A stretch of DNA of 25,081 nucleotides from a virus. This document shows, one piece after another, positions 3 to 25,081 of the stretch. Both the position numbers and the translations under genes were made by a program. A model generated the notes under the pieces. It was not told the DNA's origin, searched no databases, and saw only the letters and a list, made by a program, of their open reading frames with translations. Within the stretch, counting starts at the first letter, position 1. Each line of letters begins with the position of its first letter. The stretch spans positions 1 through 25,081 of the IMG/VR virus record IMGVR_UViG_3300025083_000213, one strand, 5' to 3'.

Positions 3-416
3 GCTGATAAACAAATAATAAATGGGCCGCTTGTTACTACACACAATGGCTTTACAGGTGGTGATTACCAGATGTTGATTTTCCTAAAGAATCAACATCC
101 TGAGTTTTATTATCATGATGTTAAACTTAAAATTGAAATGTCTGACCTTATAGAAGGTGAAATCTTTAGTAATAGCGGTTGGTCTATTAAATTAAAGTAT
201 GGTTCAGAACAACCTACTGAAAAACAATGGGGTGATATATTAGTTAATAACGAAATATCTATTCCTGATATTGGCAATCAATATATACCTGATACAGATA
301 CTTATCATCCTATATGGATTAGAGTCTTTTGTCCTGGACATACTACTCCTGACATTAAAAAAGATATGAGTTGTGTATTGAAATTCTTTCGTAAATTAGT
401 AGGTGATAGTCAATGA
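3..416 (+). CDS. 5'-truncated virion-associated protein, function unknown
   Basis: The reading frame is open from the first bases of the window (frame starting at base 3), so the gene most likely begins upstream. The ATG at 72 is only an internal methionine with no purine-rich Shine-Dalgarno sequence before it. The visible C-terminal 137 residues begin ADKQIINGPLVTTHNGF and are rich in beta-prone, aromatic and polar residues, as in phage virion beta-sandwich proteins. I recognise no family. It ends in an ATGA overlap with the next gene, which implies translational coupling within one structural operon. A hairpin (71-99) lies in the coding sequence. The call is real-gene certain and function unknown. 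Confidence 0.75.
   Translation, partial: ADKQIINGPLVTTHNGFTGGDYQMLIFLKNQHPEFYYHDVKLKIEMSDLIEGEIFSNSGWSIKLKYGSEQPTEKQWGDILVNNEISIPDIGNQYIPDTDTYHPIWIRVFCPGHTTPDIKKDMSCVLKFFRKLVGDSQ
71..99 (+). repeat. intragenic hairpin, 10-bp perfect stem
   Basis: GATGTTGATT (71-80) pairs with AATCAACATC (90-99). A T-G and an A-T pair can extend it inward to 12 bp with a 5-nt loop. Confidence 0.8.
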
Positions 417-883
417 GTTTTTTTGATGATATCTTTGAAAATAAAAGATTTACAGAAGACCCAGAATTATTTAAGAAGTTTCTATTAGAGCAAAGAAAAG
501 AAACTTCTGAACCTGTAGTACCTCCAAGTATAATAGAATTACAAAAGATACTAGATAAAAGTCGTATTGATAAAGGTGCACAATTAACTATGGATGAAGC
601 AAAGTTAATTGATGCTCGCAATAAACAAAATATAAGTGAAGCTAAAACAGTAATGAAACAAATATCTAAAATTAAGAGTGATTTAATTGATGATATTAAA
701 AACAATGGTGATGGTTTTACATTATCTTTACGAAATAAAAGTCGTTTAAAAAATTGCGCTAATGCAATTTTTGGTAGCAACAAAGAAGAAATTACTTATG
801 ATGATTATATAACTTTATTAGAATTAAAAAAGTTATTAGATTATGAAGATGGTGCTGAACTTTTACAAGGAGAATATGAATAA
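413..883 (+). CDS. hypothetical structural-operon protein (156 aa)
   Basis: A 156-aa, charged, mostly helical protein starting MSFFDDIFENKRF and ending in an acidic tail (LLDYEDGAELLQGEYE). Its ATG overlaps the upstream stop (ATGA), and its stop overlaps the next start (TAATG at 881-885), so the genes are translationally coupled. There is no signal peptide or membrane segment. The family is not recognised. Its position in a run of virion genes suggests a small virion or assembly protein, by inference only. A 9-bp intragenic hairpin sits at 749-772. Confidence 0.8.
   Translation: MSFFDDIFENKRFTEDPELFKKFLLEQRKETSEPVVPPSIIELQKILDKSRIDKGAQLTMDEAKLIDARNKQNISEAKTVMKQISKIKSDLIDDIKNNGDGFTLSLRNKSRLKNCANAIFGSNKEEITYDDYITLLELKKLLDYEDGAELLQGEYE
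749..772 (+). repeat. intragenic hairpin, 9 bp
   Basis: AAAAATTGC (749-757) pairs with GCAATTTTT (764-772), loop GCTAAT. Inside a gene; A+T-rich. Confidence 0.65.
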
Positions 884-1182
884 TGGGCTTTTATAGTAAG
901 TTAAGAAATGAAGAAGATTCTCCTAGAGAAGATGAAAATGATGCATTAGAGGAACAGTATCAAAAGCTATATAAAAAGATAGCGCGAGATTTTGTTCATG
1001 TAGGTGATTTTCAAAAAGTTATTCTTGACTTAATAAATGATAAGTCTTTTTTAATAGCATTAGCAACAGCAGCAACAAAACAAAAAGCTATTGCTAAAGC
1101 AATAGAGTATAAAGAGAATTTAGAAAAACCAAAGAATCAAAGAACTACTTATAAAGATATTTTGGATAACAAAGATGACTGA
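883..1182 (+). CDS. hypothetical small protein (99 aa)
   Basis: A 99-aa, highly charged, helical protein. It has an acidic N-terminal third (EEDSPREDENDALEEQ), a central amphipathic helix and a basic C-terminal part. An Ala-rich stretch (LIALATAATKQKAIAKAI) lies near residues 55-72. It starts in the TAATG overlap with the preceding gene, and AAGGAGAATATGAATA upstream (867-882) supplies a good ribosome binding site. Its 3' end overlaps the 813-aa gene by 8 nt. No family is recognised; chaperone or minor virion roles are possible but unsupported. Confidence 0.75.
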   Translation: MGFYSKLRNEEDSPREDENDALEEQYQKLYKKIARDFVHVGDFQKVILDLINDKSFLIALATAATKQKAIAKAIEYKENLEKPKNQRTTYKDILDNKDD

Positions 1183-3616
1183 TTTAGAAATAGCATACCC
1201 AGAAATAGTTACATTAATAGAAGCTTATGAAAGAGCTTTATTTAAGAAGATGGAAAAAGATCCATCTGATTCTGATGTACGTACAGCATATATGGCAAAT
1301 TTAATTAACATGGAATCTATTATGCAAGCACATGTTGATGCTAGTAAAGTTTCTGCTGCGAATGTTGTTGATGGGTTGTTAAGTGAACTAAAGAATAAAG
1401 AACGACAAGAAAATTCTAATTTAGACATTGAAACTCAAACTTATGGTTTGGGTAAAAGTAGTCAAAAAAATAACGATAAAGATCCTAAAACTTGGGGTGA
1501 TTATACATACTCTGAATGTACTGTAACAGATATAAATGGTAAAGAGTATAGTGTAAATGACCCTAATGCACCTGATGTGTTTGATGCTACATGGTATGGA
1601 GATAGGGAAAACAATCTTACAGAAGATAGATGGTTTGATGGAGAAGAAATAAAAAAGAAATATGCAGCTAGATTTACTAATAAATTTGAAGCTAGTTATT
1701 CAGCAAGAGTTACTGAGTATTTAGATGATAAAATTGCTGGTGGTACAGGTAAATTAAAAGGTAGTAACTTTTCTATTGAAGATTGTTTAAATTGTGTAAT
1801 TAGAATTGAACTTGATTTACTAGTACCAAACTTAGAAATCGTTATTGACTTTAGTAAACTGCTTAATCAAGTAAAACAATTATTGCAACAGTTGCTGAAC
1901 GATTTAGACCCAACTAAATTGTTCAGTATGATATGTGATTTTTTCTTAAAATTTAAAGGAAACTTTTTATGCCCTCAAAACCTAATAGGCATACAATTAC
2001 TTTTACCTACCTTATTTGCTAAGTTTAGTTTTGATTTAATTAAATTTAGATTTGATTGGACTGCTTTGATAGGGCCTTTAATAAAAGGCATATTAACTTT
2101 CTTAGTATCTTTAATAGAAAACATACCTAAAATAACAAATCCAATAATAGATTGTTTAATTAATAGTATTACGACTGTAATGAAAGCATTACAGTCTATA
2201 GCTTCTTCAATTGATAAAGGTGTAAATGAAGTTGCAGGTGGTATTGAAAAAATAGTTAATAGAGTATTTAGCATTTATGAAAGAATCTTAGAACGTATTT
2301 ATGAAAAAACAGGTGGAAAGGGTCTTATTGGTCAATTTGGTAGTATCAGTTTAGAAAGTGATATGTTTAAAGAAGAATATAAAGAGTTTTTAAAAGAAAA
2401 TGGAGATGTCTTTAATCAAAATGGTGAAGTAAATCCAGAGTATTTTGAAACAGATTTAAATACTGAAAAAGCCAAAGTTGTAGATGATTTTATTTCTTAT
2501 TTAAAATTTGCTTATACTATAAGTCCTCATGATCTTGGATCATCGGGTTCAGATGTAGATGGACTTTCATTTGAAGAAATAACTACATACTTCTTGCAAT
2601 GGTTACAAGAAGATGAAAATTACAAAGATTTTTATACTGTTTTTGTCAATAAAAATCAATATGGTTCAAGACAACAAAAACAAAAAGCAAAAAAATACAA
2701 CGATTTAGTAAAAGAACAAACACAATATCAAGAAAGAATAAAAAAAGAAATAGATGAGGAAAAAAGAGATAAAAATAAAAAATATTTTAAAGCTGGTTTT
2801 ACTATTGAAAAAAATAGTATAAAATTTCCTGCTGTTATTGGTATGAAACCTGGAGCCAAAATAAATAAGTATCAAACAGTAGTACCTTATATTGGCATTG
2901 CTAAAACTAAGAAATTAAAACAAGGCTACCTTCTACAACGTGGTTTTGATGAAGCTGGAACTATAGATAAATCAGAATATAAATGGACTGATTACTTGCA
3001 ATCTAAAGTTGGTTTAGACATTAAAAGCGAATATAGAACTTCAGATTTTCTTGATATTCCAACTCTTAATTTAAGAAAAGCTTTTGATGACACTGTATTT
3101 AAGTTTGTAGATGAGAGAATACTTTACTATTTAAGAATTGCTAAATCTTGGATCAACGAAAGTGTTGGAAATGTTGTAAAGGCTTTAAAAGCTTTACAAC
3201 AATTTATTGGTGAAGCATTTGATGCTGAATTTAAAATACTTGGTGAAATGCAAGAAATCTTACAAATAGTAAGATTTGTAAGATTGATGATAGAGTTGAT
3301 AGATAACGGTTTAACTAATTGTGATGAATTGCGTAAGAATAAAGATGTCTTTCGTAGTATACTTGAAAAATCACAAAGAAACCCTTCTAATGGTAACTAT
3401 GAAACAAGCAACAATGCTTTAACTGTATTAGATGATGACGAAGTATCTAACATGGGTTTAGATCCTGAAGATCATATAGTAATGGTTACTAAAGATAGAA
3501 AATATAATTCTGTAGTTGACTTAAACGAATGTGCTGATGTTTCAAAACATTTAGAAATAAATGATTATAATCTAGACTTAATTTATGAGGGTATAGAAAA
3601 TGGCACAATCGTATGA
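1175..3616 (+). CDS. large virion-type protein (813 aa), function unknown
   Basis: An 813-aa protein with alternating helical and beta segments. Residues about 230-360 are notably hydrophobic (LIGPLIKGILTFLVSLIENI and nearby) and could be membrane-interacting or form a helical bundle; a second long helical region spans about 645-720. Around residues 500-545 there is a Lys/Glu/Gln-rich low-complexity segment. The Cys residues (DCLNCV near 205, plus LCPQN) are scattered with no clear metal site. It overlaps both neighbours, consistent with one polycistronic late mRNA. Large proteins next to head genes in myophages are often baseplate, fibre or internal virion proteins, but no motif decides. Five of the intragenic hairpins lie here, including a 15-bp one at 1893-1928. 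Confidence 0.8.
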   Translation: MTDLEIAYPEIVTLIEAYERALFKKMEKDPSDSDVRTAYMANLINMESIMQAHVDASKVSAANVVDGLLSELKNKERQENSNLDIETQTYGLGKSSQKNNDKDPKTWGDYTYSECTVTDINGKEYSVNDPNAPDVFDATWYGDRENNLTEDRWFDGEEIKKKYAARFTNKFEASYSARVTEYLDDKIAGGTGKLKGSNFSIEDCLNCVIRIELDLLVPNLEIVIDFSKLLNQVKQLLQQLLNDLDPTKLFSMICDFFLKFKGNFLCPQNLIGIQLLLPTLFAKFSFDLIKFRFDWTALIGPLIKGILTFLVSLIENIPKITNPIIDCLINSITTVMKALQSIASSIDKGVNEVAGGIEKIVNRVFSIYERILERIYEKTGGKGLIGQFGSISLESDMFKEEYKEFLKENGDVFNQNGEVNPEYFETDLNTEKAKVVDDFISYLKFAYTISPHDLGSSGSDVDGLSFEEITTYFLQWLQEDENYKDFYTVFVNKNQYGSRQQKQKAKKYNDLVKEQTQYQERIKKEIDEEKRDKNKKYFKAGFTIEKNSIKFPAVIGMKPGAKINKYQTVVPYIGIAKTKKLKQGYLLQRGFDEAGTIDKSEYKWTDYLQSKVGLDIKSEYRTSDFLDIPTLNLRKAFDDTVFKFVDERILYYLRIAKSWINESVGNVVKALKALQQFIGEAFDAEFKILGEMQEILQIVRFVRLMIELIDNGLTNCDELRKNKDVFRSILEKSQRNPSNGNYETSNNALTVLDDDEVSNMGLDPEDHIVMVTKDRKYNSVVDLNECADVSKHLEINDYNLDLIYEGIENGTIV
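1893..1928 (+). repeat. intragenic hairpin, 15 bp with two G-U pairs
   Basis: Core arms 1895-1907 and 1914-1926 with loop ACCCAA. G-U pairs fall at 1901/1920 and 1894/1927, both allowed only in the + strand RNA. Confidence 0.8.
2173..2196 (+). repeat. intragenic hairpin, 10-bp perfect stem, tetraloop
   Basis: GACTGTAATG (2173-2182) pairs with CATTACAGTC (2187-2196), loop AAAG. Confidence 0.82.
3172..3201 (+). repeat. intragenic hairpin, 10-bp perfect stem
   Basis: TGTTGTAAAG (3172-3181) pairs with CTTTACAACA (3192-3201), 10-nt loop. It encodes part of a long helix. Confidence 0.75.
3255..3277 (+). repeat. intragenic hairpin, 9-bp perfect stem
   Basis: AAATCTTAC (3255-3263) pairs with GTAAGATTT (3269-3277), loop AAATA. 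Confidence 0.75.
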
Positions 3617-6428
3617 ACAAGTAAGAAAACAAGCTGCAGAATATAAAAGACAAGTAGAAGAGTTAGAAAGGAAAGAAGGTATTGAGGAAGCAAATAAACT
3701 TCTTAATGAAATAGAAACCTTTATAAAAGATCACGATCCTGAAGAATATAGAATAGCTGTTAGTGAGTTTTTAGATTTAGTTTTTCTTATATTAAATAAC
3801 TATAGTTATCAAAACAAACGTAATAAAAAAGCAGCAGACATGTTAAATGCTTACGAAAAAAGCATGTTCCCATTATCTCCATATTCATTAGATGGAACAA
3901 ATGGAAAATTTTTACCTGAAGACTTAATAGTTAAAAAAGAAGAAGAAATAATAGAAGTAATACAATCATTCCCTAAAAAAGATATTAAAGATTCTAAAAA
4001 AGATACTAAGGAAAGTTATATTGGTATTGACGGACTTTACTTTCATACAGTAGATAAACAAGAAGAATATGTAAATGATAGCTTAGTGACTCCAGATCAA
4101 ATAAATTTGGTAAGTCTTACTGTTAATTTTTCAATGTACAATAATCATGATCCTAGTTTTAGTAATATTATACCTCAAATTCATGATTGGTATGCATTAG
4201 GTAATTATAATTTTGATTTAGATGATTATGAATTTTTTCCTAATAAAGAAAATTCTAAAAATAATTTAGATTACTCTTTATTTTATCTTCATTCAAATTT
4301 TGAAGAAGGATGGTTGGATAGTAGTGGAATATTAGATACGATTCTAGAATTAAGTAATAACAACAGCTTAAGTCCTAATGTTTTTGTTGATCTTTACAAA
4401 ATAAATCGAGGTGGTTTGTTAAATTTTTTTCTTGGTTTTGCAATGGACAGTGATAAAAGTAAAGAACTTAATAAAATAAATCTTTTTTTAGATATGTCTA
4501 TTTTAGAATCTTTATTTAATAAAAATACAAAAAAAATAAAAGAAATTTTTTTTATAGAGCAATTAATTAAAAAACATAATGTAGAAATTCATATTTATAT
4601 AGTAACTGCATTTTCTGAATACTTAAAAAAAGAACCAGCTAAAAGACTTAAAAATTTCCTTATAGAAATAGAAAACAATTATAATAGCAAAGAACAAAGT
4701 AAAGTCAGTGCTGCAGTTGAAAATAGTTTTCTTTCTTTTAATTATATTTCTACATTTGAAGATGTTTATACTGATAGATTTGTTACTGAAGATCAATTAA
4801 ATCTTATTTACCCTTATAATTATTCAACACCCACCCGTTATTATTGGGACAATTTATTTAATAAAGATAAAATAAATTCTAACAATAATCTAGTTTACGA
4901 TAATTATTATGTAGGAATAACAAATTATGAAACAGAAGGTTTTGCTGATGCTTCAACAAAGTTAAGACTTTTTAGAGTTGGAAGTGGTTTACTTAATCCT
5001 TCAGATAATAATTCATTTGTAAATGATTTTATTAGTGTTTTTCCTACTGAATTATTTTATAAATTCTTTAATGATAATGTTGATGAAGCAGAAGTTTTTA
5101 GCAGTACACCAAATGAAAGTTTAATTATTGATTTTCAAACTTATAATTATTTAACTCAAACTACTGTTATTAATAAAATAAATTTATTTTTAGATATTTC
5201 GAATATATTAAATTTGTGTTTTTCTCCAACTGGTATATCAAAATTTGTAAATGAATTTAATAAAATTGAAAAAACATTTGAATTAAAAATACATATTTGG
5301 TTTTTAGAATATAAGATAGAAGAACTCGATGAAAAAACTAAACAAGAGATAGATAAAAGAAAAGCGTTTTTGAATAATTATTTTGCACCAAAAGAAACTA
5401 TACAAGAAAAAAAGAAATTAATAAAAACAACAAAAGTAAAACCTATAGAATCTAAAACCTTAAAAGTGTTTCCTAGAGCAGTTGCTAAAAGTGCAAGCAG
5501 AAAAGCTAAAAGAAGAAAAGTAAAACCAAGAAAGAAACAAATAGCAAATAATAAAGTTAATACTGCTAGTAAAAACAATATAAATAATGATGTACCTGTA
5601 GAATATGTAGATCCAATGGTTTCTATAAATGAAACCATTGGATACAATGGTCAGCCTTTAAAATATGATGAACAATCATTAACTAAAGAAAGAAAATACT
5701 TTGGAATTGATAATAATAAAGAGTATTTGGAATTAAGAAACGAAATAGATCAATTTACTCGTGAACAAAAAGATAAAGCACCATCATATCTACTTGCAAC
5801 TCAATCAGCTGATGGAAAACTTTCTCAAAGTTCAGATGAATATTATTTAGAAGAAGGTAGCGATAAGTTAGATGCACATTTATTTGAATTTAAAGAATTT
5901 CCAAAAGAAAGATTAAAACATTTAGATAAACAAAAAGATAAAATATATTTAATGGGTTATGTTAATACTCAAAATTACACTAAAGTAAATCAATTAATAA
6001 GTGCTTTAAGTAATCAAGAATTGGAGTTACGAAATAGTATAGAAACACTTAACTTCGCAATACTAGATATAACTAATACTAATAGTCAAGATCTTTCTCT
6101 TTTTAATAGAAAAGAGGATTTAAAAGATTATGAAATTGAAAAAAAATCTTATGAAAATGATTTAAGAAATATAAAAAAACAAATAAATGAATTATTAAAA
6201 ATAAGACAAACTATGAAAGAATATAAAAATGATGATGTTGAATATAAAAGAACCCCTTCTTCAAGAAAAATTGTAACTGATGAGGTCCTTATTGATTTCG
6301 CTGAAGGAAGTGAAGCACTTGGAAGAGTAGAAGAAGATAATATAATTTATTTAAGTTACGAAGATTTTATTATACAAAAAGAAATAAAAGCAATTATAGA
6401 TTATAATAATAAAAAACGTAAAAAATAG
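3600..6428 (+). CDS. large repeat-containing virion-type protein (942 aa) with basic linker
   Basis: A 942-aa protein with four visible parts: a helical N-terminus (1-130); two divergent copies of a domain of about 233 residues (about 155-385 and 388-615); a Lys/Arg-rich linker (about 600-650, with SASRKAKRRKVKPRKK); and an acidic/coiled-coil C-terminal region (coiled coil about 790-880). The copies are matched by VTPDQINLV/VTEDQLNLI (residues 163 and 395) and KINLFLDMS/KINLFLDIS (292 and 526), with EIHI/KIHI downstream. Similarity persists in the DNA. The gene is more A+T-rich than its neighbours, and its first 2 kb lack the strong hairpins found elsewhere, which may mean later acquisition. 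It overlaps the upstream gene by 17 nt. Function is not recognised; an extended virion or fibre-like protein is possible. Confidence 0.8.
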   Translation: MAQSYEQVRKQAAEYKRQVEELERKEGIEEANKLLNEIETFIKDHDPEEYRIAVSEFLDLVFLILNNYSYQNKRNKKAADMLNAYEKSMFPLSPYSLDGTNGKFLPEDLIVKKEEEIIEVIQSFPKKDIKDSKKDTKESYIGIDGLYFHTVDKQEEYVNDSLVTPDQINLVSLTVNFSMYNNHDPSFSNIIPQIHDWYALGNYNFDLDDYEFFPNKENSKNNLDYSLFYLHSNFEEGWLDSSGILDTILELSNNNSLSPNVFVDLYKINRGGLLNFFLGFAMDSDKSKELNKINLFLDMSILESLFNKNTKKIKEIFFIEQLIKKHNVEIHIYIVTAFSEYLKKEPAKRLKNFLIEIENNYNSKEQSKVSAAVENSFLSFNYISTFEDVYTDRFVTEDQLNLIYPYNYSTPTRYYWDNLFNKDKINSNNNLVYDNYYVGITNYETEGFADASTKLRLFRVGSGLLNPSDNNSFVNDFISVFPTELFYKFFNDNVDEAEVFSSTPNESLIIDFQTYNYLTQTTVINKINLFLDISNILNLCFSPTGISKFVNEFNKIEKTFELKIHIWFLEYKIEELDEKTKQEIDKRKAFLNNYFAPKETIQEKKKLIKTTKVKPIESKTLKVFPRAVAKSASRKAKRRKVKPRKKQIANNKVNTASKNNINNDVPVEYVDPMVSINETIGYNGQPLKYDEQSLTKERKYFGIDNNKEYLELRNEIDQFTREQKDKAPSYLLATQSADGKLSQSSDEYYLEEGSDKLDAHLFEFKEFPKERLKHLDKQKDKIYLMGYVNTQNYTKVNQLISALSNQELELRNSIETLNFAILDITNTNSQDLSLFNRKEDLKDYEIEKKSYENDLRNIKKQINELLKIRQTMKEYKNDDVEYKRTPSSRKIVTDEVLIDFAEGSEALGRVEEDNIIYLSYEDFIIQKEIKAIIDYNNKKRKK
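5611..5643 (+). repeat. intragenic hairpin, 13-bp perfect stem
   Basis: ATCCAATGGTTTC (5611-5623) pairs with GAAACCATTGGAT (5631-5643), loop TATAAAT. It lies just after the basic linker of the 942-aa protein. Confidence 0.88.
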
Positions 6429-6437
6429 GAAAACAAA

Positions 6438-7964: not shown

Positions 7965-8005
7965 TATCTTTATTTTAGAATGTAAACAAACAAAAAGGTA
8001 TTAAT

Positions 8006-10771: not shown

Positions 10772-10799
10772 TAAATAGCTTTATCCTAGGAGAATAATT

Positions 10800-13497: not shown

Positions 13498-13507
13498 TAG
13501 ATAGCTT

Positions 13508-13537: not shown

Positions 13538-13553
13538 ACATTGCTTATGCTAT

Positions 13554-13580
13554 AAAAAGCGAGGGAAACCTCGTTTTTTT
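13554..13580 (+). terminator. rho-independent terminator downstream of the major capsid gene
   Basis: A GC-rich stem (CGAGG 13560-13564 with CCTCG 13569-13573) closes a GAAA (GNRA) tetraloop and is followed by seven T residues (13574-13580). An upstream A-run (13554-13558) allows extension of the stem and could make it work in both directions. It separates the head genes from the neck genes. Confidence 0.92.
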
Positions 13581-13597
13581 ATTTTGTGGAGCAAGCA

Positions 13598-14921: not shown

Positions 14922-14932
14922 AGGAGTTTAAA

Positions 14933-17282: not shown

Positions 17283-17291
17283 GAGTTTAAT

Positions 17292-19979
17292 ATGGCCTAT
17301 CAAGATCTTATTTTTAATAACCTAGCAGGTAAAGTTGTTGGCATTTATAATGACAACAACTTACAAAGAGATGTAGAAATACCTTTAGCTAGCCCTCGTC
17401 GTATTATTGCAACTGGAACTGCAACTGCAGGTGCTCGCAACGAACTTTTTAATGTTCGTTCTATTAACACTGCAATGCAAACTTTTGGAAATGATTCTGA
17501 AATTGCAACTATTATTCAACGAGTTGCTAATATAAACACAAATTTCAATTTAAGTGTTATGCGAATTGGTTCTAAACCTTTCCATTGGCGTTTAAAACAA
17601 GACATTGCTGGATCATATGAAAAGGAACCTCTAATTTCTATTGTACCTGTCTTTGTACAAGAAAAAGATGCAACACAAAATATATTTTCTACTTTAGAAA
17701 ATTTAAAAATCGTTTTAATGCCTTTTGTAGATAACAATGTTATTCGTCAACGTGTAATCTTGTTTAACCATGATCGAAATCCTGATTCTACTAATGCTAT
17801 TTATGATTCTGAAAGATTACTTGTTGCTAATGGCGAAGTAGGTTTTGAGGTTTCTATTGATGTGCCATACGGTACTGTACTTTATACTCCAAATGCCTTT
17901 TCTGCTAATACTCAAATAGGTAATGGATATACAGATGCACAATTAGCAACACTTTCTGAAGTTAATGCATTTCTAACTGATAGTATGACTGTTTTAAGTG
18001 ATGAAGCTAACTTTGACACTGCTATCTCTTCTATTAATACTATTAATAGAAGCGTTAATACATTAAGCGGAATAACTGGATACCATTTAGATGTTTATGC
18101 TGGTAAAAGCCAAAAGAAATTAAATTACTGTGAAAGATATATTAACAATGAAGAAGCTTATCGTGTTCTTGAATTCCAGAATGCAGATTTTCTTTATTGT
18201 GAAGGATGTTTTGCAGATATTAAACCAGTATCTTTAATTGGTAAAAATGCTGCATTTGCATTAAACTGGGCATCAGAAAACTTAGGTTATCTTTGGAAAT
18301 ATGTATTCAATGGTCGTTCATATTCTTATATGTTCCGTACAGCAGAACCATTTACAAATACTTTAGTAACAAGCACTTATACAAATGACGGTGTTACTTA
18401 TAACTTCTCTGCTAGTAATAAGTTGCTTGGTGATTTATTAAATCTTGTAGAAATACACCTACATCCTAAAGCTCAAGGAACAGCTACTGACATTGAAACT
18501 TTTTCTAATGAAAAAGGTATTATTGAATGTCATGTAGACTTTGATTGTGATCCTACAACTGCTACAGATGCAAGAGGAAGAACAGAAGCTGAATTTGTTT
18601 TACTAGCAGGGTATAACGATGCAAACAATGATGGTGAAGATGATGTTACTGGTTTAAATAACGCAGCACATACTGCTTATGTTGATGCAGGATGGATCGA
18701 AGCAGTTGGAACTATTACTTTACAAACACCATTCTGTGAACTGCAATTTGATGTAACTAAATTTAACGATGGTGATGCTGACTATACAAAGCGTCTTCGT
18801 CCATCTTTAATTGATGTAAGTGATGCAGTAAGTACTTTATTAAGAAATGGTGACAGTGGAAACAATGACCCATTTGTAATCTCTCATTGGGATATGGCAC
18901 AAGATGAGATTCCTGAAGGTGTTATAGCAAGACTTATTAATTTCCCAGAAACTGGAGCTTCAGCTGCTACACTAGTAGCATCTAACTTAGAAGTACGTGA
19001 AGTTTCTTTCTTACATCAAGTAGCCCAAGCTGCTTATCAAGCTTCTAGTAACTATAATCACACTGTAGGACTTGTTCCGACAAGTCATCCTAGTTCATCT
19101 AAAACTGGTTTGCATGTATGGGCAGGTAATCCTGCTGAGTACGAGGTAAAAGAAGATGGAAGTATTGTTGTTACCAAAAATGGTACTGGCATTTTAGGTA
19201 ACAAATTGTTAGCTGGTGAAGTTGGCTATCGCGATAGTGCTGCTTTTGGTGGTATCATCCTTACTAATGGTGAGGATTTACCAAATGATTTACCTTATGG
19301 TATCGATGATAGTGATGAAGCATTAGATGTAAATAACAACCCAATAGATTTAGGTAAACATGTTGTTGTTGTTGGATCTTATGGATATGTACCTGATCCT
19401 AGAAATTCATTCACAGCGAACAGAGGTAAAGTAAGTCGTATCAATCCTTTCAACAATCCTCTTTATGTAAATGCTGGTCCTAGTATTGCTCAAATCCTTT
19501 GTGATCTTCCTCCAGGAAATGAGCCTATTGGTCCTGTAAATGGTGCTGTTGCTGGATTTAATAACAGAATGCAAACACCTAGACAGATTCTTAACAACTT
19601 AGCTGCTTTGCGTATTTGTATGATTGGTCAAGATAGTGTTATCTCATCAATTTATACAGCTGCTTTAAGAACTTCAGACTACACAAAAATCTCTTCAATT
19701 ATTTCTTCAAATGAAATATTGAAGAGAGTACGTCAATATGCAGCACCTGTTCTTGGTCAAGCATTAAGTGATGCAACTATTAATAGCTTAGATACTACAA
19801 TGTTAGGTTTATCTAATGCGTTAAAGAACGAAGGATATGCACAAGCATGTCGTATCCAATTGCGTGCTAATCGTTTAGATCGTATTAATGGCGTTTTGAA
19901 TGCAAGAGTTAGCTTTGTACCTCCATTTAGCTTGGAGACTATCAATGTTGACATTACTCTTGAAGCACCTGCAGTTTAA
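17292..19979 (+). CDS. tail sheath protein (895 aa)
   Basis: This is the contractile sheath subunit. The C-terminal domain is typical: LAALRICMIGQDSV, a helical segment, ACRIQLRANRLDRINGVLNA and the final strands with SFVPPFSLETINVDITLE, which provide the donor and acceptor strands of the sheath mesh. The N-terminus (AGKVVGIYNDNNLQ and SPRRIIATGTATAGARNELF) fits the first sheath domain. At 895 aa it is larger than most sheaths (about 400-700 aa), the extra length lying in the middle (about 150-700) as surface-exposed insertion domains. AGGAGTTTAATATG gives a strong ribosome binding site. The tube genes follow at once, the usual order. Hairpins lie at 17332, 18028, 19168 and 19690. Confidence 0.92.
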   Translation: MAYQDLIFNNLAGKVVGIYNDNNLQRDVEIPLASPRRIIATGTATAGARNELFNVRSINTAMQTFGNDSEIATIIQRVANINTNFNLSVMRIGSKPFHWRLKQDIAGSYEKEPLISIVPVFVQEKDATQNIFSTLENLKIVLMPFVDNNVIRQRVILFNHDRNPDSTNAIYDSERLLVANGEVGFEVSIDVPYGTVLYTPNAFSANTQIGNGYTDAQLATLSEVNAFLTDSMTVLSDEANFDTAISSINTINRSVNTLSGITGYHLDVYAGKSQKKLNYCERYINNEEAYRVLEFQNADFLYCEGCFADIKPVSLIGKNAAFALNWASENLGYLWKYVFNGRSYSYMFRTAEPFTNTLVTSTYTNDGVTYNFSASNKLLGDLLNLVEIHLHPKAQGTATDIETFSNEKGIIECHVDFDCDPTTATDARGRTEAEFVLLAGYNDANNDGEDDVTGLNNAAHTAYVDAGWIEAVGTITLQTPFCELQFDVTKFNDGDADYTKRLRPSLIDVSDAVSTLLRNGDSGNNDPFVISHWDMAQDEIPEGVIARLINFPETGASAATLVASNLEVREVSFLHQVAQAAYQASSNYNHTVGLVPTSHPSSSKTGLHVWAGNPAEYEVKEDGSIVVTKNGTGILGNKLLAGEVGYRDSAAFGGIILTNGEDLPNDLPYGIDDSDEALDVNNNPIDLGKHVVVVGSYGYVPDPRNSFTANRGKVSRINPFNNPLYVNAGPSIAQILCDLPPGNEPIGPVNGAVAGFNNRMQTPRQILNNLAALRICMIGQDSVISSIYTAALRTSDYTKISSIISSNEILKRVRQYAAPVLGQALSDATINSLDTTMLGLSNALKNEGYAQACRIQLRANRLDRINGVLNARVSFVPPFSLETINVDITLEAPAV
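17332..17362 (+). repeat. intragenic hairpin, 13 bp with one mismatch, near sheath start
   Basis: AAGTTGTTG (17332-17340) pairs with CAACAACTT (17354-17362); after a G/A mismatch, CATT pairs with AATG around a TAT loop. It begins 40 nt after the sheath ATG. Confidence 0.78.
18028..18052 (+). repeat. intragenic hairpin, 11-bp perfect stem, triloop
   Basis: CTTCTATTAAT (18028-18038) pairs with ATTAATAGAAG (18042-18052), loop ACT. Confidence 0.82.
19168..19204 (+). repeat. intragenic hairpin, 14 bp with one mismatch
   Basis: TTGTTACC (19168-19175) pairs with GGTAACAA (19197-19204); after an A/A mismatch, AAAATG pairs with CATTTT; loop GTACTGG. Confidence 0.82.
19690..19727 (+). repeat. intragenic hairpin, 15 bp with one bulge
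   Basis: TCTCTTCAAT (19690-19699) pairs with ATTGAAGAGA (19718-19727); after a bulged T, ATTTC pairs with GAAAT; loop TTCAAAT. Confidence 0.84.
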
Positions 19980-20004
19980 TTTTAGATTATAGGAGAAATA
20001 TAAA

Positions 20005-20778
20005 ATGGCAACTTCTTTAGATTTAAGTAGAACATATACATCCTATAGCGGTGTTGATATTAGAGTTATTGTTAATGGTGCTCAAGTTGGTAGTATGCAA
20101 GCTTTGTCTTATGCTATTCAACGTGAGAAAGCACCTATTTATGTTATGGGTTCTGTAGATCCTGTATCTTATTCTCGTGGTAAACGTGGTATTGCTGGTA
20201 CTATGATTTCACTAATGATGGATGTGCATTTATTATATACACCGTCATTTACTGGTGAAAGATACTATGGTGATAATGATGAAATTAGACCTGTAGTAGA
20301 TAAAGACGGTGATTTATCTGATGTAGATAACGAGGGGCTAGAAGAAAACCGAGGGGAAGGGATTGGAAGCATTAGCCTTAGAAAAGCAAATAATGCTCAA
20401 ATTTCTTATTTAAAAGAAATAGGGTCTACAAGGGGTTATCCTGGTGTAAATGGTACTGTTCTTCGAACAGAAGCTAGCTATGATACAAATGATTTATTTG
20501 AAAATTATTCTGTTCAAAATGTATTTTATGTAGATCAAATACTTCCTTTTGATATTACAATTGTAGCTGCAAATGAATACGGTCAAACTGCTCAAATGCG
20601 TTTATATGGTTGTGAAATTCTTAATGAAGGTTCTGGTTTTTCTATTGATGATATTGTTATTGAAAACCAAATGACTTATGTTTGTCGTACAATATTACCT
20701 TGGAGAACTATTCAAAATACTGAAGCTGACAAAATGTATAAAACCTTATTAAATGAGGATCATCGTGGATATGAGTAA
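20005..20778 (+). CDS. tail tube protein (257 aa)
   Basis: The major tail tube candidate, located just after the sheath. The N-terminal half has the tube hallmarks: SGVDIRVIVNGAQVGSMQAL, then YAIQREKAPIYVMGSVDP and SYSRGKRGIAGTMISLMM, a pattern shared by tube proteins of many large myophages. An acidic insertion lies around residues 90-120 (DNDEIRPVVDKDGDLSDVDN). The C-terminal strands include AANEYGQTAQMRLYGCEILN. Tube rings stack on the tape measure and are wrapped by the sheath. The ribosome binding site is AGGAGAAATATAAAATG. It is the first and longest of three tube-fold paralogues. Confidence 0.88.
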   Translation: MATSLDLSRTYTSYSGVDIRVIVNGAQVGSMQALSYAIQREKAPIYVMGSVDPVSYSRGKRGIAGTMISLMMDVHLLYTPSFTGERYYGDNDEIRPVVDKDGDLSDVDNEGLEENRGEGIGSISLRKANNAQISYLKEIGSTRGYPGVNGTVLRTEASYDTNDLFENYSVQNVFYVDQILPFDITIVAANEYGQTAQMRLYGCEILNEGSGFSIDDIVIENQMTYVCRTILPWRTIQNTEADKMYKTLLNEDHRGYE

Positions 20779-20797
20779 TAGTAAAAATAAGACGTAG

Positions 20798-20848
20798 TTG
20801 ATTTCGATTTTTATATAATATACTCTTTATAAAAAAGGAGTATATCAT
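20798..20848 (+). promoter_or_regulatory. AT-rich intergenic with SD-masking hairpin and possible -10 box
   Basis: The 70-bp gap before the second tube paralogue contains an 8-bp inverted repeat (ATATACTC 20818-20825 with GAGTATAT 20838-20845) whose 3' arm includes part of the AAGGAG ribosome binding site (20835-20840). TATAAT at 20814-20819 could be a -10 box, but no -35 stands at the right distance (TTGATT is only 10 nt upstream). Translation control is more plausible than a new promoter. Confidence 0.35.
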
Positions 20849-21412
20849 ATGTCAACTATTTATCCGATTCGCTATTCATTTTCAGGTGCAGATTGTAGAG
20901 CTTACGGTTACTTTGATAGTGGTAAACCAACTCCAGAAAATATTGGTCATAATAATTTATGGTTATATCCTAGAATTCCAGTACTTTTAAATAACTTTGC
21001 AACAATATCGCTTTCAATACATGAGTCTAAATCACCTGTTAGAAGATTGGGGCATATGGCTCCTGTTGGATATACAAGAGCAGTTAGAACCATTGCTGGA
21101 TCAATGGTTCTAACTATAATCGGAAGTAATCATCCTTTAACAGAATTATCAATTAAAGACCCTTATTCAATAACGCATTTTAGTATGGACTCAGATAATA
21201 GTTCTAATATTGTAACAAAGATGAGTCCTTTTAATTTGATATTACTTTATAAGTCTGAATTGCCTGGAGCATCTGGATCTAAAATGAAAATTAAAGGTGT
21301 AGAATTTATAAATGAAGGTATAGTAACGTCTGTAAATGATTTAGTAAGTGAAGTAGTGTTACAATTTGTTGCATTAGATATCGAACAATTTGAAAGCGAT
21401 AGTTATTTATGA
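20849..21412 (+). CDS. tube-fold paralogue, second copy (187 aa)
   Basis: A divergent paralogue of the tube protein. SGADCRAYGYFDSGKP, PVRRLGHMAPVGYTRAV and RTIAGSMVLTIIG align without gaps to SGVDIRVIVNG, APIYVMGSVDPVSYSRGK and RGIAGTMISLMM of the first copy. It probably forms a specialised ring at one end of the tube (initiator or terminator side) or part of the baseplate hub; the sequence does not decide. Its stop overlaps the next start (ATGA). The RTIAGSMVLT segment is encoded by the longest perfect hairpin in the window (21082-21115). Confidence 0.8.
   Translation: MSTIYPIRYSFSGADCRAYGYFDSGKPTPENIGHNNLWLYPRIPVLLNNFATISLSIHESKSPVRRLGHMAPVGYTRAVRTIAGSMVLTIIGSNHPLTELSIKDPYSITHFSMDSDNSSNIVTKMSPFNLILLYKSELPGASGSKMKIKGVEFINEGIVTSVNDLVSEVVLQFVALDIEQFESDSYL
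21082..21115 (+). repeat. intragenic hairpin, 14-bp perfect stem (longest perfect in window)
   Basis: AGTTAGAACCATTG (21082-21095) pairs with CAATGGTTCTAACT (21102-21115), loop CTGGAT. It encodes the conserved RTIAGSM motif of the second tube paralogue. Confidence 0.92.
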
Positions 21413-21879
21413 GTAATTATGAATATTTTAGTGGTGCTAATGTTGTTGTAAAAGTAGATAGTAATGTATTGACAGAATGCGCTGGCATTTCATATGTTGT
21501 TCAATCATCTTCACAACCTGTATACAGTTACGCATCTACTAAATTTGATTTAATGCTAAATGGCAGAGAAATGGTTCAAGGTAATTTTTTAATAAATTAT
21601 ACTACTCCAGATAGTTTACTAACTAGAATAACACAAGAAATACAATTAACAGATATAAAGCAAAAGGGTGTAATTGCTGATTTAAGTGAAGCTTTTAAAT
21701 ATTATTTTGATATTGAAATACACTTTGGTCCTGAAATAGGTAAATTTGATAATCCAAAAAATAAACAAACAATAAAAAATTGTCGAATAATTTCTAGAGG
21801 AAAAACTATACAAATATCTGATCAAGTGTTATTAGAAGAGTATACTTTTATTGGAAGAAATATTGAAATTGGTTTTTAA
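21409..21879 (+). CDS. tube-fold paralogue, third copy (156 aa)
   Basis: The shortest tube-like protein. SGANVVVKVDSNVLTECAGI and YVVQSSSQPVYSYASTKFDL correspond in order to the first two motif blocks of the tube proteins, followed by NGREMVQGNFLINYTTPDSL in place of the RGIAGTM block. The C-terminal strand region (KNCRIISRGKTIQISDQVLL) matches the tube C-terminus in order. It is translationally coupled to the second copy through an ATGA overlap. Likely a minor tube or hub component; inference from homology within the window. Confidence 0.7.
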   Translation: MSNYEYFSGANVVVKVDSNVLTECAGISYVVQSSSQPVYSYASTKFDLMLNGREMVQGNFLINYTTPDSLLTRITQEIQLTDIKQKGVIADLSEAFKYYFDIEIHFGPEIGKFDNPKNKQTIKNCRIISRGKTIQISDQVLLEEYTFIGRNIEIGF

Positions 21880-21892
21880 GTAAAGGAATTCT

Positions 21893-22771
21893 ATGGGTCT
21901 ATCAGGAAGAAAAATAAATGACAATATGGTTCTATTTGGAGACCCCTTAAATGAAAAAGCTATAGATGCTTTAAGACGTACTTCACCTACTGGTAATGAC
22001 ATCATAAAGTCATTACCGAAAAGTGCATTTATTCCTATTGTAAAAAAAGAGAATAAAGAGGAAATTTTAAAACAACAAAAAAAAGAAGAAGAAAATCTTT
22101 TGATTTTAAATTCTATTAAAAGTGCAAAAGAAAGACGTCGTTTAAAAAGAGAAAAAAGTTTATTAAAAAAAGAGGTTGAAAATAAAACTCAAAAAAGTTT
22201 TAATTTTTTAAAAGATTTAATTTACAAAAAAAACCCTATAGAAAAAATAAAGGAATTTAATATGAGTTTAGAAGAAGAACTTGCAATGTTAGAAAAAGAG
22301 ATTGAAAAGAAAAACATTCAGCAAGAAAATCCTGAAGCTGTATTTTCTGATGAACCCGCTCCTGAGCAAGTTGAAATGAAAGACCAGATTCTCCAAATAT
22401 TAAAGAATTTGGAGAATGCACCATCTGAAGAAATTATAAATGCATGGAAAGAAAAGTATGGTAAATCTGGCGTACATGTAATGGCATTTGGTGAAGACGA
22501 CGTATATATTTATCATCATCTTACTAGAGGTGAATGGCGTAAGATTAAAGAAATAATGAATAAGCTGAAAGAAAATTCAGATGACGCAGATTTAATTGAA
22601 GAAAAGCTAAAAGAAAAAGTTGTTTTATATTGTGTGCTTTTCCCATCTGTAAACGAACAATGGTTAGATAATTGTAAAGCTGGTGTTTTAGATTCATTAT
22701 ATCAAATGATTCTTTTAAACTCTGGGTTCTTAACTCCACAACAAGCAATGTTATTAACAACTCAACTGTAG
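21893..22771 (+). CDS. tail assembly chaperone-like protein with N-terminal extension (292 aa)
   Basis: The C-terminal 169 residues resemble phage tail assembly chaperones. Features are MSLEEELAMLEKEIEKK, IINAWKEKYGKSGVHVMAFG, DDVYIYHHLTRGEWRKIKEI, then a hydrophobic VVLYCVLFPS strand and the closing KAGVLDSLYQMILLNSGF. Such proteins hold the tape measure during tube assembly and are encoded between tube and tape-measure genes, as here. Residues 1-123 are an unusual Lys/Glu-rich extension with its own start (AAAGGAATTCTATG) and no recognised family. A second in-frame start with a better ribosome binding site opens the chaperone part. Confidence 0.75.
   Translation: MGLSGRKINDNMVLFGDPLNEKAIDALRRTSPTGNDIIKSLPKSAFIPIVKKENKEEILKQQKKEEENLLILNSIKSAKERRRLKREKSLLKKEVENKTQKSFNFLKDLIYKKNPIEKIKEFNMSLEEELAMLEKEIEKKNIQQENPEAVFSDEPAPEQVEMKDQILQILKNLENAPSEEIINAWKEKYGKSGVHVMAFGEDDVYIYHHLTRGEWRKIKEIMNKLKENSDDADLIEEKLKEKVVLYCVLFPSVNEQWLDNCKAGVLDSLYQMILLNSGFLTPQQAMLLTTQL
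21992..22017 (+). repeat. intragenic hairpin, 9-bp perfect stem
   Basis: GGTAATGAC (21992-22000) pairs with GTCATTACC (22009-22017), loop ATCATAAA; 99 nt after the long chaperone start. Confidence 0.8.
22262..22771 (+). CDS. probable internal-start chaperone product (169 aa)
   Basis: The ATG at 22262 (Met124 of the longer ORF) is preceded by AAAGGA with correct spacing (AATAAAGGAATTTAATATG). The product would begin exactly at MSLEEELAMLEKEIE, which is how related tail assembly chaperones appear to start. The long and short forms may both be made. Use of this start is inferred from the ribosome binding site and family length. Confidence 0.6.
   Translation: MSLEEELAMLEKEIEKKNIQQENPEAVFSDEPAPEQVEMKDQILQILKNLENAPSEEIINAWKEKYGKSGVHVMAFGEDDVYIYHHLTRGEWRKIKEIMNKLKENSDDADLIEEKLKEKVVLYCVLFPSVNEQWLDNCKAGVLDSLYQMILLNSGFLTPQQAMLLTTQL
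22388..22417 (+). repeat. intragenic hairpin, 11-bp perfect stem
   Basis: ATTCTCCAAAT (22388-22398) pairs with ATTTGGAGAAT (22407-22417), loop ATTAAAGA. Confidence 0.86.
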
Positions 22772-22772
22772 T

Positions 22773-23438
22773 ATGAATATAAAGAAAGTACTTGAATATA
22801 ATACTGAATTATATTCAATAGCATATTCGAATACTTTATCTTTTGAGTTTCGTCTATTAAAAATAAAAGAGTTTAACTTATTTAACAAGTTGTTAGTAGG
22901 CGGAATTCATGAATACCTTATATATGAAGAAATCTTTGAGATTTGTTATATTGGTAATTATAAGTATTTACCTAGTTCATTACCTATAGGGTATATAATA
23001 ACAACAGGTAATTTAATATATAATTTATCAGGCGCAGATTCATCTGATAACTTCTTATTTAAAATAGCTGAACAACGTAAAGAACAAAATCCTAACTCTT
23101 TGCTTGAGCATATGAAAGGTGTAATTCATATTGCTTTCTCATCTATATCTCCAAAGGATATAGATGAGATGACAGAGAATCAGCTAATAAAAACATTTGT
23201 ATCTGCTGAAAATGTACTAGCTAAACAAAACGAAAACTTTGTTAGAATAGATCTAAAAAAGATTTATGATGAGTTAAATGGTATAGTTGATAAACCTAAA
23301 AAAGAATATGTTTCAGATAACGCAATGCTTGAAAAAGAACTTGGTTACTGGAACTTACAAGAAGCAGAAGATAAATTTGTTAAAGAAGAAAAAGAAAAAT
23401 TGTCTAAGGAGGTATTAAGATCCTTAGATAGGAGGTAA
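22773..23438 (+). CDS. second tail/baseplate assembly protein before the tape measure (221 aa)
   Basis: A 221-aa protein starting 1 nt after the chaperone stop. It has a helical N-terminus with SNTLSFEFRLLKIKEFNLFN, a hydrophobic central part (PIGYIITTGNLIYNLSG, about 70-86), and a charged coiled-coil C-terminus (KEELGYW to KEEKEKLSKEVLRSLDRR). Its position beside the chaperone resembles the paired chaperone or T4 gp26/gp51-type hub-assembly genes, but no motif is diagnostic. No slippery heptanucleotide is visible at the junction, so it is probably translated independently by coupling. It contains two perfect hairpins, 22792-22818 (19 nt after the start) and 23137-23169. Confidence 0.65.
   Translation: MNIKKVLEYNTELYSIAYSNTLSFEFRLLKIKEFNLFNKLLVGGIHEYLIYEEIFEICYIGNYKYLPSSLPIGYIITTGNLIYNLSGADSSDNFLFKIAEQRKEQNPNSLLEHMKGVIHIAFSSISPKDIDEMTENQLIKTFVSAENVLAKQNENFVRIDLKKIYDELNGIVDKPKKEYVSDNAMLEKELGYWNLQEAEDKFVKEEKEKLSKEVLRSLDRR
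22792..22818 (+). repeat. intragenic hairpin, 11-bp perfect stem, near gene start
   Basis: TTGAATATAAT (22792-22802) pairs with ATTATATTCAA (22808-22818), loop ACTGA; 19 nt after the ATG of the 221-aa gene. Confidence 0.84.
23137..23169 (+). repeat. intragenic hairpin, 13-bp perfect stem
   Basis: TCTCATCTATATC (23137-23149) pairs with GATATAGATGAGA (23157-23169), loop TCCAAAG. Confidence 0.9.
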
Positions 23439-23440
23439 CT
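23404..23440 (+). promoter_or_regulatory. tandem Shine-Dalgarno region, upstream copy in a hairpin
   Basis: AGGAGGTA occurs twice, at 23407-23414 and 23430-23437. The second is the ribosome binding site of the gene at 23441. The first is part of a 7-bp hairpin (CTAAGGA 23404-23410 with TCCTTAG 23421-23427) and has no start codon at a usable distance. It could be a ribosome standby or decoy site. Confidence 0.5.
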
Positions 23441-25081
23441 ATGTTTACACAACAAGGTCCTGGCGGTATTTATTATTCTGCTGTACAAACAGAACCTGAT
23501 ATGCACCCATTAATAGAAATGGGTGCATCTATTGCACCTTATGCTTTAGGTTTTGCTGGATTAAGTAAACTAGCTTCTACTCAATATTCTAAAGACTCTC
23601 AATATAGCTATTTAGATATATTTCAAAAACAAGTAAGAAATCTTGCTGAACTTACACCATTAGGTATTGGTAATACTTTTCGTATACCAGAATATCTATC
23701 TCCTTATATGTCTGCTAAAGGACTTGGTTTGGATATAGGTAAGTCTGTATTAGATCCTACTCAAGATGTAGGTAAATATATATTAGATGCAGACTTTTTA
23801 ACAAACAGCAGTACAAAGAATGCTTTAGAAGGTGTTTTAGGCAAAACACAATACGATAAAATAAGTACTTTCTTAACTGAAGGACAAAAAGACTTTCAAT
23901 TAGTTTATGAACAAGGTTTAGAAGGTAAAGGTAAGTCTAATTTAATATTTCAACAATTAGAAGAATACTCAGACACTCTAAGTGATGGCACTAAACAAAT
24001 AAAAACTCGTGTCAAAAAAGGTACTAATATACATCTTGGCAGTGACTTTAGATTAATGAATCTAAATTACGGTGATAGCAATTATGATTTTTTAGAAACT
24101 TTTGGTAAAGATAAAAAGTTAAATCCTGCTATGTTAGGTTTTTTTCAATCATTAGGTTTACCTCAAGATACAAAATACTCACAAATATATTCTAATGCTG
24201 CAGGTGATAAAGCTAAGTTTGCTTTAGTATCTTCAGTAGGTGGTAAGCTAGATAATTTAGGTGATTTAAGAAGACGCACTGCTTTACTTACTGCACCTTT
24301 GTCATCTGGTATAAATCGTTTTAATCGATTACTAGAAGCAACAAGGAATCAAATACCTATATTAGGTGATTTCGTAGGAAGATTATCTGAAGCAACTGGT
24401 TTGTCATTAAAGACAAGACCAGATGCTTTTTACAAACAATATGCTTCGTTAGGTTTGAAAGCAGCAAAGATAGGTGCAGTTCATTTAGGCTTACAAACAG
24501 TTGACCATTATAGGCGTAACTTTGGTACAGTAGGAAACCTTGTTGCATCTGCAGGTGTAGGTGCAGGTGTTGGTTACTTATATGATAAAATGTCTAAGCA
24601 AAAGAAGTTTGGTGCAGGCAAAGTAGGAATGGTTGCTTTTGGAGCACAAATGTTAATGCCAGGTTTTGACCAAGGCATTGTTGAAGGTTTATCTACTACG
24701 TTGACCAACATTGATATTGGAAGATCAATGATTGGTCAAATGACAGGTTTATCTTATTTGCGTAGAGGTATTGAAGGAGTTTTGCCAGGGTTTACTGATT
24801 ATACTGTAGGTTTAGCTTTAGGTGTTGGTGTTGCTGGGTTAAGTTATAGTGGCTATGCAGAAGGAATGTTAAAAAGAACAAATCAAAATAAACTGACACA
24901 AATGGATAAGTTTTTAAAAGGCTTCGTACCTAAAAGTATAAAAGATAGAATTGGATTTGTATCAGGTGTTTTAAAGTATAAAAATCCAGACAGTGTAATT
25001 AAATCTAGAGCTTTAGTAGATGTTTTAGATCCACAAAACTTTACATTAAAAAGTAAATCTGGAATTTTTTCTAAAATAAAT
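23441..25081 (+). CDS. large virion protein in tape-measure position, 3' end outside window
   Basis: An ORF of at least 547 codons, open to the window end, starting MFTQQGPGGIYYSAV after a perfect AGGAGG. The N-terminal 350 residues are polar and mixed. From about 360 the protein is Gly/Ala-rich with several hydrophobic helices (VASAGVGAGVGYLYDKM, VGMVAFGAQMLMPGF, YTVGLALGVGVAGLSYSGYA), as in tape measure or internal virion proteins that contact membranes on ejection. Position directly after tube and chaperone genes supports a tape measure, whose length would set tail length; a fused lytic domain could lie beyond the window. Identity is inferred from context. Confidence 0.7.
   Translation, partial: MFTQQGPGGIYYSAVQTEPDMHPLIEMGASIAPYALGFAGLSKLASTQYSKDSQYSYLDIFQKQVRNLAELTPLGIGNTFRIPEYLSPYMSAKGLGLDIGKSVLDPTQDVGKYILDADFLTNSSTKNALEGVLGKTQYDKISTFLTEGQKDFQLVYEQGLEGKGKSNLIFQQLEEYSDTLSDGTKQIKTRVKKGTNIHLGSDFRLMNLNYGDSNYDFLETFGKDKKLNPAMLGFFQSLGLPQDTKYSQIYSNAAGDKAKFALVSSVGGKLDNLGDLRRRTALLTAPLSSGINRFNRLLEATRNQIPILGDFVGRLSEATGLSLKTRPDAFYKQYASLGLKAAKIGAVHLGLQTVDHYRRNFGTVGNLVASAGVGAGVGYLYDKMSKQKKFGAGKVGMVAFGAQMLMPGFDQGIVEGLSTTLTNIDIGRSMIGQMTGLSYLRRGIEGVLPGFTDYTVGLALGVGVAGLSYSGYAEGMLKRTNQNKLTQMDKFLKGFVPKSIKDRIGFVSGVLKYKNPDSVIKSRALVDVLDPQNFTLKSKSGIFSKIN
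23501..23538 (+). repeat. intragenic hairpin, 11-bp perfect stem, with competing 6-bp partner
   Basis: ATGCACCCATT (23501-23511) pairs with AATGGGTGCAT (23518-23528), loop AATAGA. The 3' arm segment GGTGCA (23522-23527) can instead pair with TGCACC just downstream (23533-23538). It begins 60 nt after the start of the tape-measure candidate. Confidence 0.82.
24047..24066 (+). repeat. intragenic hairpin, 8-bp perfect stem, tetraloop
   Basis: TTTAGATT (24047-24054) pairs with AATCTAAA (24059-24066), loop AATG. Confidence 0.6.
24701..24739 (+). repeat. intragenic hairpin, 15 bp with one bulge
   Basis: TTGACCAACATTGAT (24701-24715) pairs with ATCAATG-(A)-TTGGTCAA (24724-24739), loop ATTGGAAG. 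Confidence 0.84.

Follow-up and report, generated by a model that had tools for sequence, protein, structure and literature searches.

The window and its genes

The window analyzed here is the whole stretch of 25,081 bases in positions 1 to 25,081 of the IMG/VR virus record IMGVR_UViG_3300025083_000213, and our subject is the set of short hairpins that lie almost entirely within its protein-coding genes. The window carries the structural module of a large myovirus, with tape-measure-like, portal (PHROG 9232), major capsid, and tail-sheath (PHROG 16991) proteins recognized from PHROGs, and all of its major genes are carried on the + strand. Its portal protein is 31-34% identical, over 84-92% coverage, to those of the Bacillus phage KLEB27-3, the Acinetobacter phage ME3, and the Moorella phage MTATph1. 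By its homologous portal and the neighboring head and tail genes, the window matches the 0305phi8-36 / ME3-like large myovirus module, and the database record of ME3 mentions homology with 0305phi8-36. In this virus, and in a few scattered relatives, short perfect hairpins are 10- to 30-fold too many.

The same virus is present in two other IMG/VR contigs from two samples (L002 and L003), which are 99.9% identical to the window, cover positions 1607-19802, and carry its hairpins with zero differences within stems. An assembly error is therefore ruled out for 1607-19802, and comparison with the sister virus L034, described below, likewise rejects an assembly artefact. A scan of the window against Rfam gave no match, a transfer RNA search of the window found none, and a search for the portal in bacterial genomes, made to name a host, found nothing. 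When the fast-evolving 942-residue protein was used as a query for further close relatives, only the same virus was retrieved.

Three adjacent paralogous genes at 20005-21879, encoding 257, 187, and 156 residues, are all assigned to PHROG 9206, annotated as a head protein, yet lie 3' of the tail sheath; they are probably tail-tube paralogues.

Excess of short perfect hairpins

We counted perfect stems with loops of 3-12 nucleotides (nt) and compared the counts with dinucleotide shuffles in 500-bp blocks. The window holds 30 perfect stems of at least 9 bp where 2.5 are expected, 20 of at least 10 bp (0.55 expected), 16 of at least 11 bp (0.22), 8 of at least 12 bp (0.07), and 4 of at least 13 bp (0.03). 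Gene-by-gene codon shuffles, which preserve each protein together with its codon usage, yield 1.5 stems of 11 bp or longer with a maximum of 4 in 200; when third bases are swapped with dinucleotides preserved as well, the figure is 2.3 with a maximum of 6. Fifteen of the 16 perfect stems that reach 11 bp are genic, the exception being the intergenic hairpin at 13509-13536. With mismatches allowed, 39 non-overlapping stems are found between 71 and 23528; the stems range from 9 to 17 bp, every hairpin has a different sequence, and the reading frame runs uninterrupted through each hairpin. The excess is concentrated at loops of 3-9 nt, with a peak at 4-7, a weaker tail at 10-20, and little beyond. 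Direct repeats (4 versus 0.8) and mirror repeats (3 versus 0.9) are scarcely above expectation, which makes the excess specific to inverted repeats. The main hairpins are as follows, with strand given as "." in the catalogue for every row other than 13554-13579.

71-99: perfect 10-bp hairpin, loop 9
749-772: perfect 9-bp hairpin, loop 6; relatives closer to the 3' arm
1895-1926: 13-position stem with one G-T mismatch, loop 6
2173-2196: perfect 10-bp hairpin, loop 4
3172-3201: perfect 10-bp hairpin, loop 10
3256-3285: perfect 12-bp hairpin, loop 6; can also fold as 9 bp at 3255-3277
5611-5643: perfect 13-bp hairpin, loop 7
6473-6503: perfect 12-bp hairpin, loop 7, at the start of the portal gene
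6866-6888: perfect 9-bp hairpin, portal gene; identity to relatives 0.77 in the 5' arm, 0.46 in the 3' arm
7646-7683: 16-position stem with one C-A mismatch, portal gene; conserved in the 5' arm (0.85 versus 0.68)
8152-8180: perfect 11-bp hairpin, loop 7; in some relatives a different hairpin overlaps this place, at 8171-8202
8707-8729: perfect 9-bp hairpin; conserved in the 5' arm (0.78) and changed in the 3' arm (0.50)
10104-10141: perfect 13-bp hairpin, loop 12
10849-10879: perfect 12-bp hairpin, loop 7; stem also in sister virus L034 and in L007
12051-12079: perfect 9-bp hairpin, loop 11; not in sister virus L034, whose sequence is shorter at this place
13509-13536: perfect 11-bp hairpin, intergenic, 3' of the major capsid gene; 13 bp in L034, with outer pairs changed
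13554-13579, + strand: ordinary terminator-like hairpin with a T-run, separate from the hairpin phenomenon
14029-14057: perfect 11-bp hairpin; sister virus L034 lacks 9 nt of it
14655-14680: perfect 11-bp hairpin, loop 4; L034 carries it unchanged
15020-15049: perfect 12-bp hairpin, loop 6
15613-15636: perfect 9-bp hairpin; relatives closer to the 3' arm (0.69 versus 0.52)
16147-16172: perfect 10-bp hairpin, loop 6
17332-17362: 14-position stem with one G-A mismatch, tail-sheath gene
18028-18052: perfect 11-bp hairpin, loop 3, tail-sheath gene
19168-19204: 15-position stem with one A-A mismatch, tail-sheath gene
21082-21115: perfect 14-bp hairpin, loop 6; the longest perfect stem
21992-22017: perfect 9-bp hairpin; relatives closer to the 3' arm (0.89 versus 0.44, two relatives only)
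22388-22417: perfect 11-bp hairpin, loop 8
22792-22818: perfect 11-bp hairpin, loop 5
23137-23169: perfect 13-bp hairpin, loop 7
23501-23528: perfect 11-bp hairpin, loop 6

These counts are in line with an earlier note made from the letters of the window, which had described about 40 near-perfect hairpins of unrelated sequence, about 14 of them perfect intragenic stems of at least 11 bp (15 are found), and had held codon bias and amino-acid repeats insufficient to explain them. Its estimate of 0.3 expected stems is about right for the dinucleotide null, while the fairer protein-preserving null is nearer 1.5. Its view that the hairpins are not terminators also stands: a + strand scan of 5082-25081 found no convincing terminator among them, and the only classic T-run belongs to the separate site at 13554-13579. 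That site is the second of two hairpins in tandem after the major capsid gene (13509-13579), where the 11-bp hairpin without a T-run precedes the ordinary terminator. Nor do the hairpins form a dispersed palindromic element family or bypass elements, since they have no shared sequence and no insertion relative to relatives; in most relatives the alignment is ungapped at 7646, 8152, and 10849, and through the arms of 6866.

Hairpins lie in genes without regard to reading frame

The 36 genic window stems counted with mismatches allowed are divided 12/12/12 among the three codon registers, in keeping with the even split (5, 7, and 5 of 17) reported earlier, and the 161 stems pooled from six hairpin-rich genomes are divided 51/50/60. 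A tally of 11-bp stems in the window's genes gives 6 for the 3:3 register and 4 and 5 for the other two. In the 3:3 register third bases pair with third bases, and the protein dictates two thirds of the pairs. Potential sites for 11-bp stems are correspondingly scarce there, with 4.6 in codon-order shuffles of the window genes versus 264 and 443 in the other registers, so that synonymous tuning would be expected to favor two registers 50- to 100-fold. If selected synonymous changes had built the hairpins, the 3:3 register should be nearly empty, and it is filled. The protein-level potential for stems in this register is itself raised, at 12 versus 4.6 for 11 bp and 7 versus 1.5 for 12 bp. Because 3:3 stems are as common as the others despite the scarcity of sites, and because this potential is raised, amino acids have been changed. 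The hairpins are thus frame-blind in their placement.

The excess is lineage-specific

Relatives were collected with the portal, capsid, sheath, and a tail protein, giving ~110 loci. Most are 65-78% identical in DNA sequence to the window in alignable parts and have few hairpins. The hairpin-rich relatives are the sister virus L034 (4 kb), the loci L018, L055, and L093 of one contig (G002), L016, L060, L087 (G006), L089 (G009), and the pair L099 and L112 (G015 and G014). L089 has a GC content of 0.48 and carries 18 genic stems versus 0.5 expected. Among 11 reference phages, sampled at 50 kb each and including T4, ME3, and KLEB27-3, there is little or no excess, and none that is clear in the 50 kb of T4; an E. 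coli sample has 3 stems versus 0.7 in 46 kb. On a tree built from one tail protein, the hairpin-rich state has to change at least four times, and the window virus is nested with good support in a hairpin-poor clade (L077 and L079-L081). The excess is therefore lineage-specific: it recurs in scattered relatives and is absent from the closest clade of the window virus.

One hairpin-rich relative (L098, on the 192 kb contig G012) could be followed well beyond the structural module. All nine of the 20-kb segments examined show the excess, with 5, 8, 8, 2, 9, 5, 10, 9, and 5 genic stems versus 0.0-0.8 expected, and the excess is hence a property of the genome and not of late genes.

Among nine long contigs, both hairpin-rich and hairpin-poor, a C-family DNA polymerase (Pol III alpha) was found in seven, namely L005 (G001), L020 (G003), L098 (G012), L107 (G016), L051 (G017), L094 (G018), and L108 (G013), and an A- or B-family polymerase in none. 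In six of these seven contigs the polymerase match consists of two separate open frames ~0.5-5 kb apart, as might result from an intron, an intein, or a truly split gene; one piece in G003 reads through a stop, and G013 has a single frame of 1146 residues.

Pairing and turnover

In RNA, G.U pairs are nearly free and A.C pairs are not. Among one-mismatch stems on the sense strand of the six rich genomes, G.T and A.C mismatches are equally frequent, with 28 of each and each ~4-fold over chance. This equality is strand-symmetric and is expected if perfect stems decay by transitions. In distant relatives, changes of hairpin pairs to G.U and to A.C are likewise about equal (0.94 versus 1.05 in control pairs), and 45% of double changes restore pairing versus 40% in controls; for the hairpin pairs of the window followed in relatives, the changes number 109 to G.U and 166 to A.C. 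Functional messenger RNA (mRNA) structure is not supported by covariation, G.U tolerance, or register bias, apart from a small excess of pairing-restoring double changes in G014/G015.

Among the window's own one-mismatch stems, A.A is by far the commonest mismatch (8 versus 0.3 expected at 11 pairs) and T.T is rare; sites listed for this pattern are 474-508, 581-611, 809-836, 17008-17039, and 19168-19204. The surplus seems to reflect either decay toward coding-strand purines or chance inner pairs added by A-rich loops.

Two pairs of sister viruses show how hairpins come and go. L034 is ~84% identical to the window in the main aligned block and shares the stems at 10849 and 14655. It lacks those at 12051 and 14029, both of which coincide with 9-nt length differences, and has one stem of its own. 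The intergenic hairpin at 13509 is altered in L034 yet still perfect, and with its covarying outer pairs it may be a real RNA element, unlike the genic hairpins. At ~3300-3330 of L034, opposite window positions 14018-14057 and the hairpin at 14029, lies additional sequence containing a perfect palindrome of its own, GTAAAGCTTTAC, so that local length changes and palindromes coincide there. Identity between L034 and the window over 10787-11141 and 11940-14863 is a mosaic of ~100% blocks next to ~70% blocks, which suggests recombination between the two viruses.

The G014/G015 pair is 77% identical, and 7 of 23 and 10 of 24 hairpins are common to both as perfect stems. The fraction of hairpin pairs left unchanged is close to the square root of the control-pair fraction in every class: 0.64 versus 0.69 for 1:3, 0.68 versus 0.69 for 2:3, 0.51 versus 0.55 for 3:3, and 0.89 versus 0.90 for 1:2. 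Given that the query stems were ascertained as perfect, this is what inheritance with neutral decay along one branch would give. We therefore rejected conservation as the reason for the lower divergence of the arms, which is about what ascertainment and one-branch neutral decay predict. Changes to G.U are not clearly above the neutral-decay prediction, and the double changes (14 pairing-restoring, 9 non-restoring) are somewhat above what independent change would give. Birth, near-neutral decay, and occasional re-conversion fit the turnover in both sister comparisons.

Origin of the hairpins

The probable source of the hairpins is fold-back template switching during replication, or quasi-palindrome correction, which would write them and sometimes re-perfect them while point mutation erodes them, with no function needed. 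In this process, the nascent strand would fold back on itself, or jump to the sister strand, at a chance quasi-palindrome. One arm would then be copied as the template for the other before the strand returns to its normal template, leaving an inverted repeat that is perfect, has a loop of 3-9 nt, and falls in any reading frame. Point mutation would subsequently degrade the stem at about the neutral rate, and later switches could occasionally re-perfect it, giving pairing-restoring double changes. The switching rate would be high in only some lineages, the window virus among them. Fold-back switching, or an equivalent process of arm conversion, is the best explanation. It accounts for short loops with exactly complementary arms, for symmetry between strands and indifference to frame, for the altered proteins, and for stems that decay and are restored.

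Individual sites have the appearance of arm copying, with one arm conserved and the other rewritten. In the window these are 6866 and 8707, and further footprints occur in relatives at 16402 in L055 (0.80 versus 0.38) and at 5470 in L022. Reverse-complement copying explains 11 clustered changes in hairpin-rich genomes, versus 3 in the reversed and 1 in the complement control, although this count is partly circular and provides examples only. A consistent polarity, with the 3' arm derived, was hinted at by the first alignments and failed when more sites were aligned.

Several observations weigh against this explanation. Whole-arm replacement would predict both one-arm divergence and private bases. 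When alignable hairpins were pooled and compared with matched control windows, there was neither significant arm asymmetry or one-arm divergence nor an excess of private bases, in tests where most relatives are too distant (flank identity ~0.75) and where near-palindrome correction amounts to 2 or 3 changes. Because the pooled tests gave no significant signal, we can only infer that the writing step is template switching rather than repair conversion within an extruded hairpin. Even where sites can be aligned the registers stay uniform, although purifying selection would be expected to have purged most 3:3 hairpins there, and selection is another possible source of the pairing-restoring double changes seen in G014/G015 and at 13509. 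The window contains no replication gene, we found no gene difference between hairpin-rich and hairpin-poor lineages, and DNA polymerase family does not tell the two apart, the C-family enzyme occurring in both.

We also infer that the lineage difference is rooted in replication, repair, or host exonucleases. In E. coli the known suppressors of template-switch events are 3' exonucleases, and loss or inhibition of such enzymes is thus a natural guess for the rich lineages. The chances seem evenly balanced that some phage lineages are natural template-switch mutators, through a heritable change in replication or repair or through the host exonucleases available to them, with the state gained and lost several times among close relatives. 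If they are, fold-back switching is a major source of mutation in these phages, filling whole genomes with hairpins and altering proteins.

Two other origins are unlikely, each to a similar degree. Mismatch conversion in hairpins extruded from single-stranded DNA, with one arm repaired from the other, makes identical predictions for pairing, loops, frame, and strand symmetry, but does not readily explain the 9-nt insertions or deletions at 12051 and 14029 relative to L034. Alternatively, the hairpins could function as DNA, in cruciform or single-strand forms bound by a replication, packaging, or recombination protein and selected independently of sequence. Strand symmetry, strict Watson-Crick pairing, genome-wide spread, and the 4-7 nt loops would all suit such a role; near-neutral decay in the sister pair and uniform registers despite the amino-acid cost argue against it, as do hairpin positions that most relatives do not share and the missing excess in near kin.

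Selection for folded late mRNA, in which codons are tuned for stability, processing, pacing, or evasion of RNA-targeting defence, is improbable, even though the hairpins lie in structural genes expected to be highly expressed, the stems at 10849 and 14655 are identical in L034, and G014/G015 have pairing-restoring double changes. G.U is handled like other mismatches, stems are as frequent in the register hardest to reach by synonymous tuning as in the other two, there is little covariation, and the excess extends over the whole 180 kb examined in G012 yet is missing in close kin with the same genes. Of the two candidates put forward in the earlier note, folded late mRNA is accordingly not supported, and template switching that perfects quasi-palindromes fits best; its analogy with T4 does not carry over to the genome level, given the T4 sample above. 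The decay without compensation that the note raised holds in that stems are mostly lost or decayed in relatives, and fails in that a few double changes restore pairing. Chance and base composition, or repeated amino-acid motifs, have a negligible claim, for although A+T richness favors pairing and codon shuffles retain ~1.5 of the 16 long stems, 16 stems stand against 0.2-2.3 across all nulls and L089 shows its excess at a GC content of 0.48.

Comparison with known systems

Quasi-palindrome template switching is usually studied at single reporter sites. Related phages, some saturated with apparent switch products and others, their near kin, clean, provide a natural experiment in which the genetic cause can be mapped by comparison. 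They offer a measurement of switching from sequence alone and show a route to several simultaneous amino-acid changes. They also call for caution, in that a hairpin in a viral gene is not necessarily a functional RNA structure.

Hairpins within coding sequence are known from the T4 gene 60 gap, the byps of Magnusiomyces, and the palindromic elements of Rickettsia. Unlike these, the window hairpins show no insertion at a conserved site and no shared sequence, and the frame stays open through them. Palindromes in the mitochondrial coding sequences of Nematomorpha can be as long as 284 bp, with the 3:3 codon phase avoided by the long ones; they are gained and lost between species and have no clear function, and arm conversion or template switching was suggested as their source (PMC6649704). 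The window resembles this system in its many perfect inverted repeats within protein genes, and differs in its stems of 9-17 bp, loops of mostly 3-9 nt, and equal phases.

Fold-back template switching is established in bacteria, yeast, and ribosomal RNA (rRNA) genes (PMC7202029, PMC8604942, PMC8794818). Four-base loops are enriched in the rRNA study, and copying of one arm perfects stems in rRNA and yeast genes (PMC8794818, PMC8604942). Those studies infer single events on trees, whereas here the apparent products accumulate genome-wide in a DNA phage. In prokaryotes, as in the window, short-loop inverted repeats are above chance genome-wide and the same mechanism was proposed, with assays in E. 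coli (PMC7202029). The 50 kb samples of E. coli and T4 have 3 genic stems versus 0.7-1.0 expected and the window virus has 24 versus 3.3 in 24 kb; unlike in E. coli and T4, the trait in the window virus group jumps between close lineages. Our literature search, with incomplete coverage, found no phage report of such an excess. Both the mechanism and a mild excess in prokaryotes were already known, while the intensity, the patchy distribution, and the frame-blind writing into phage genes look to be new.

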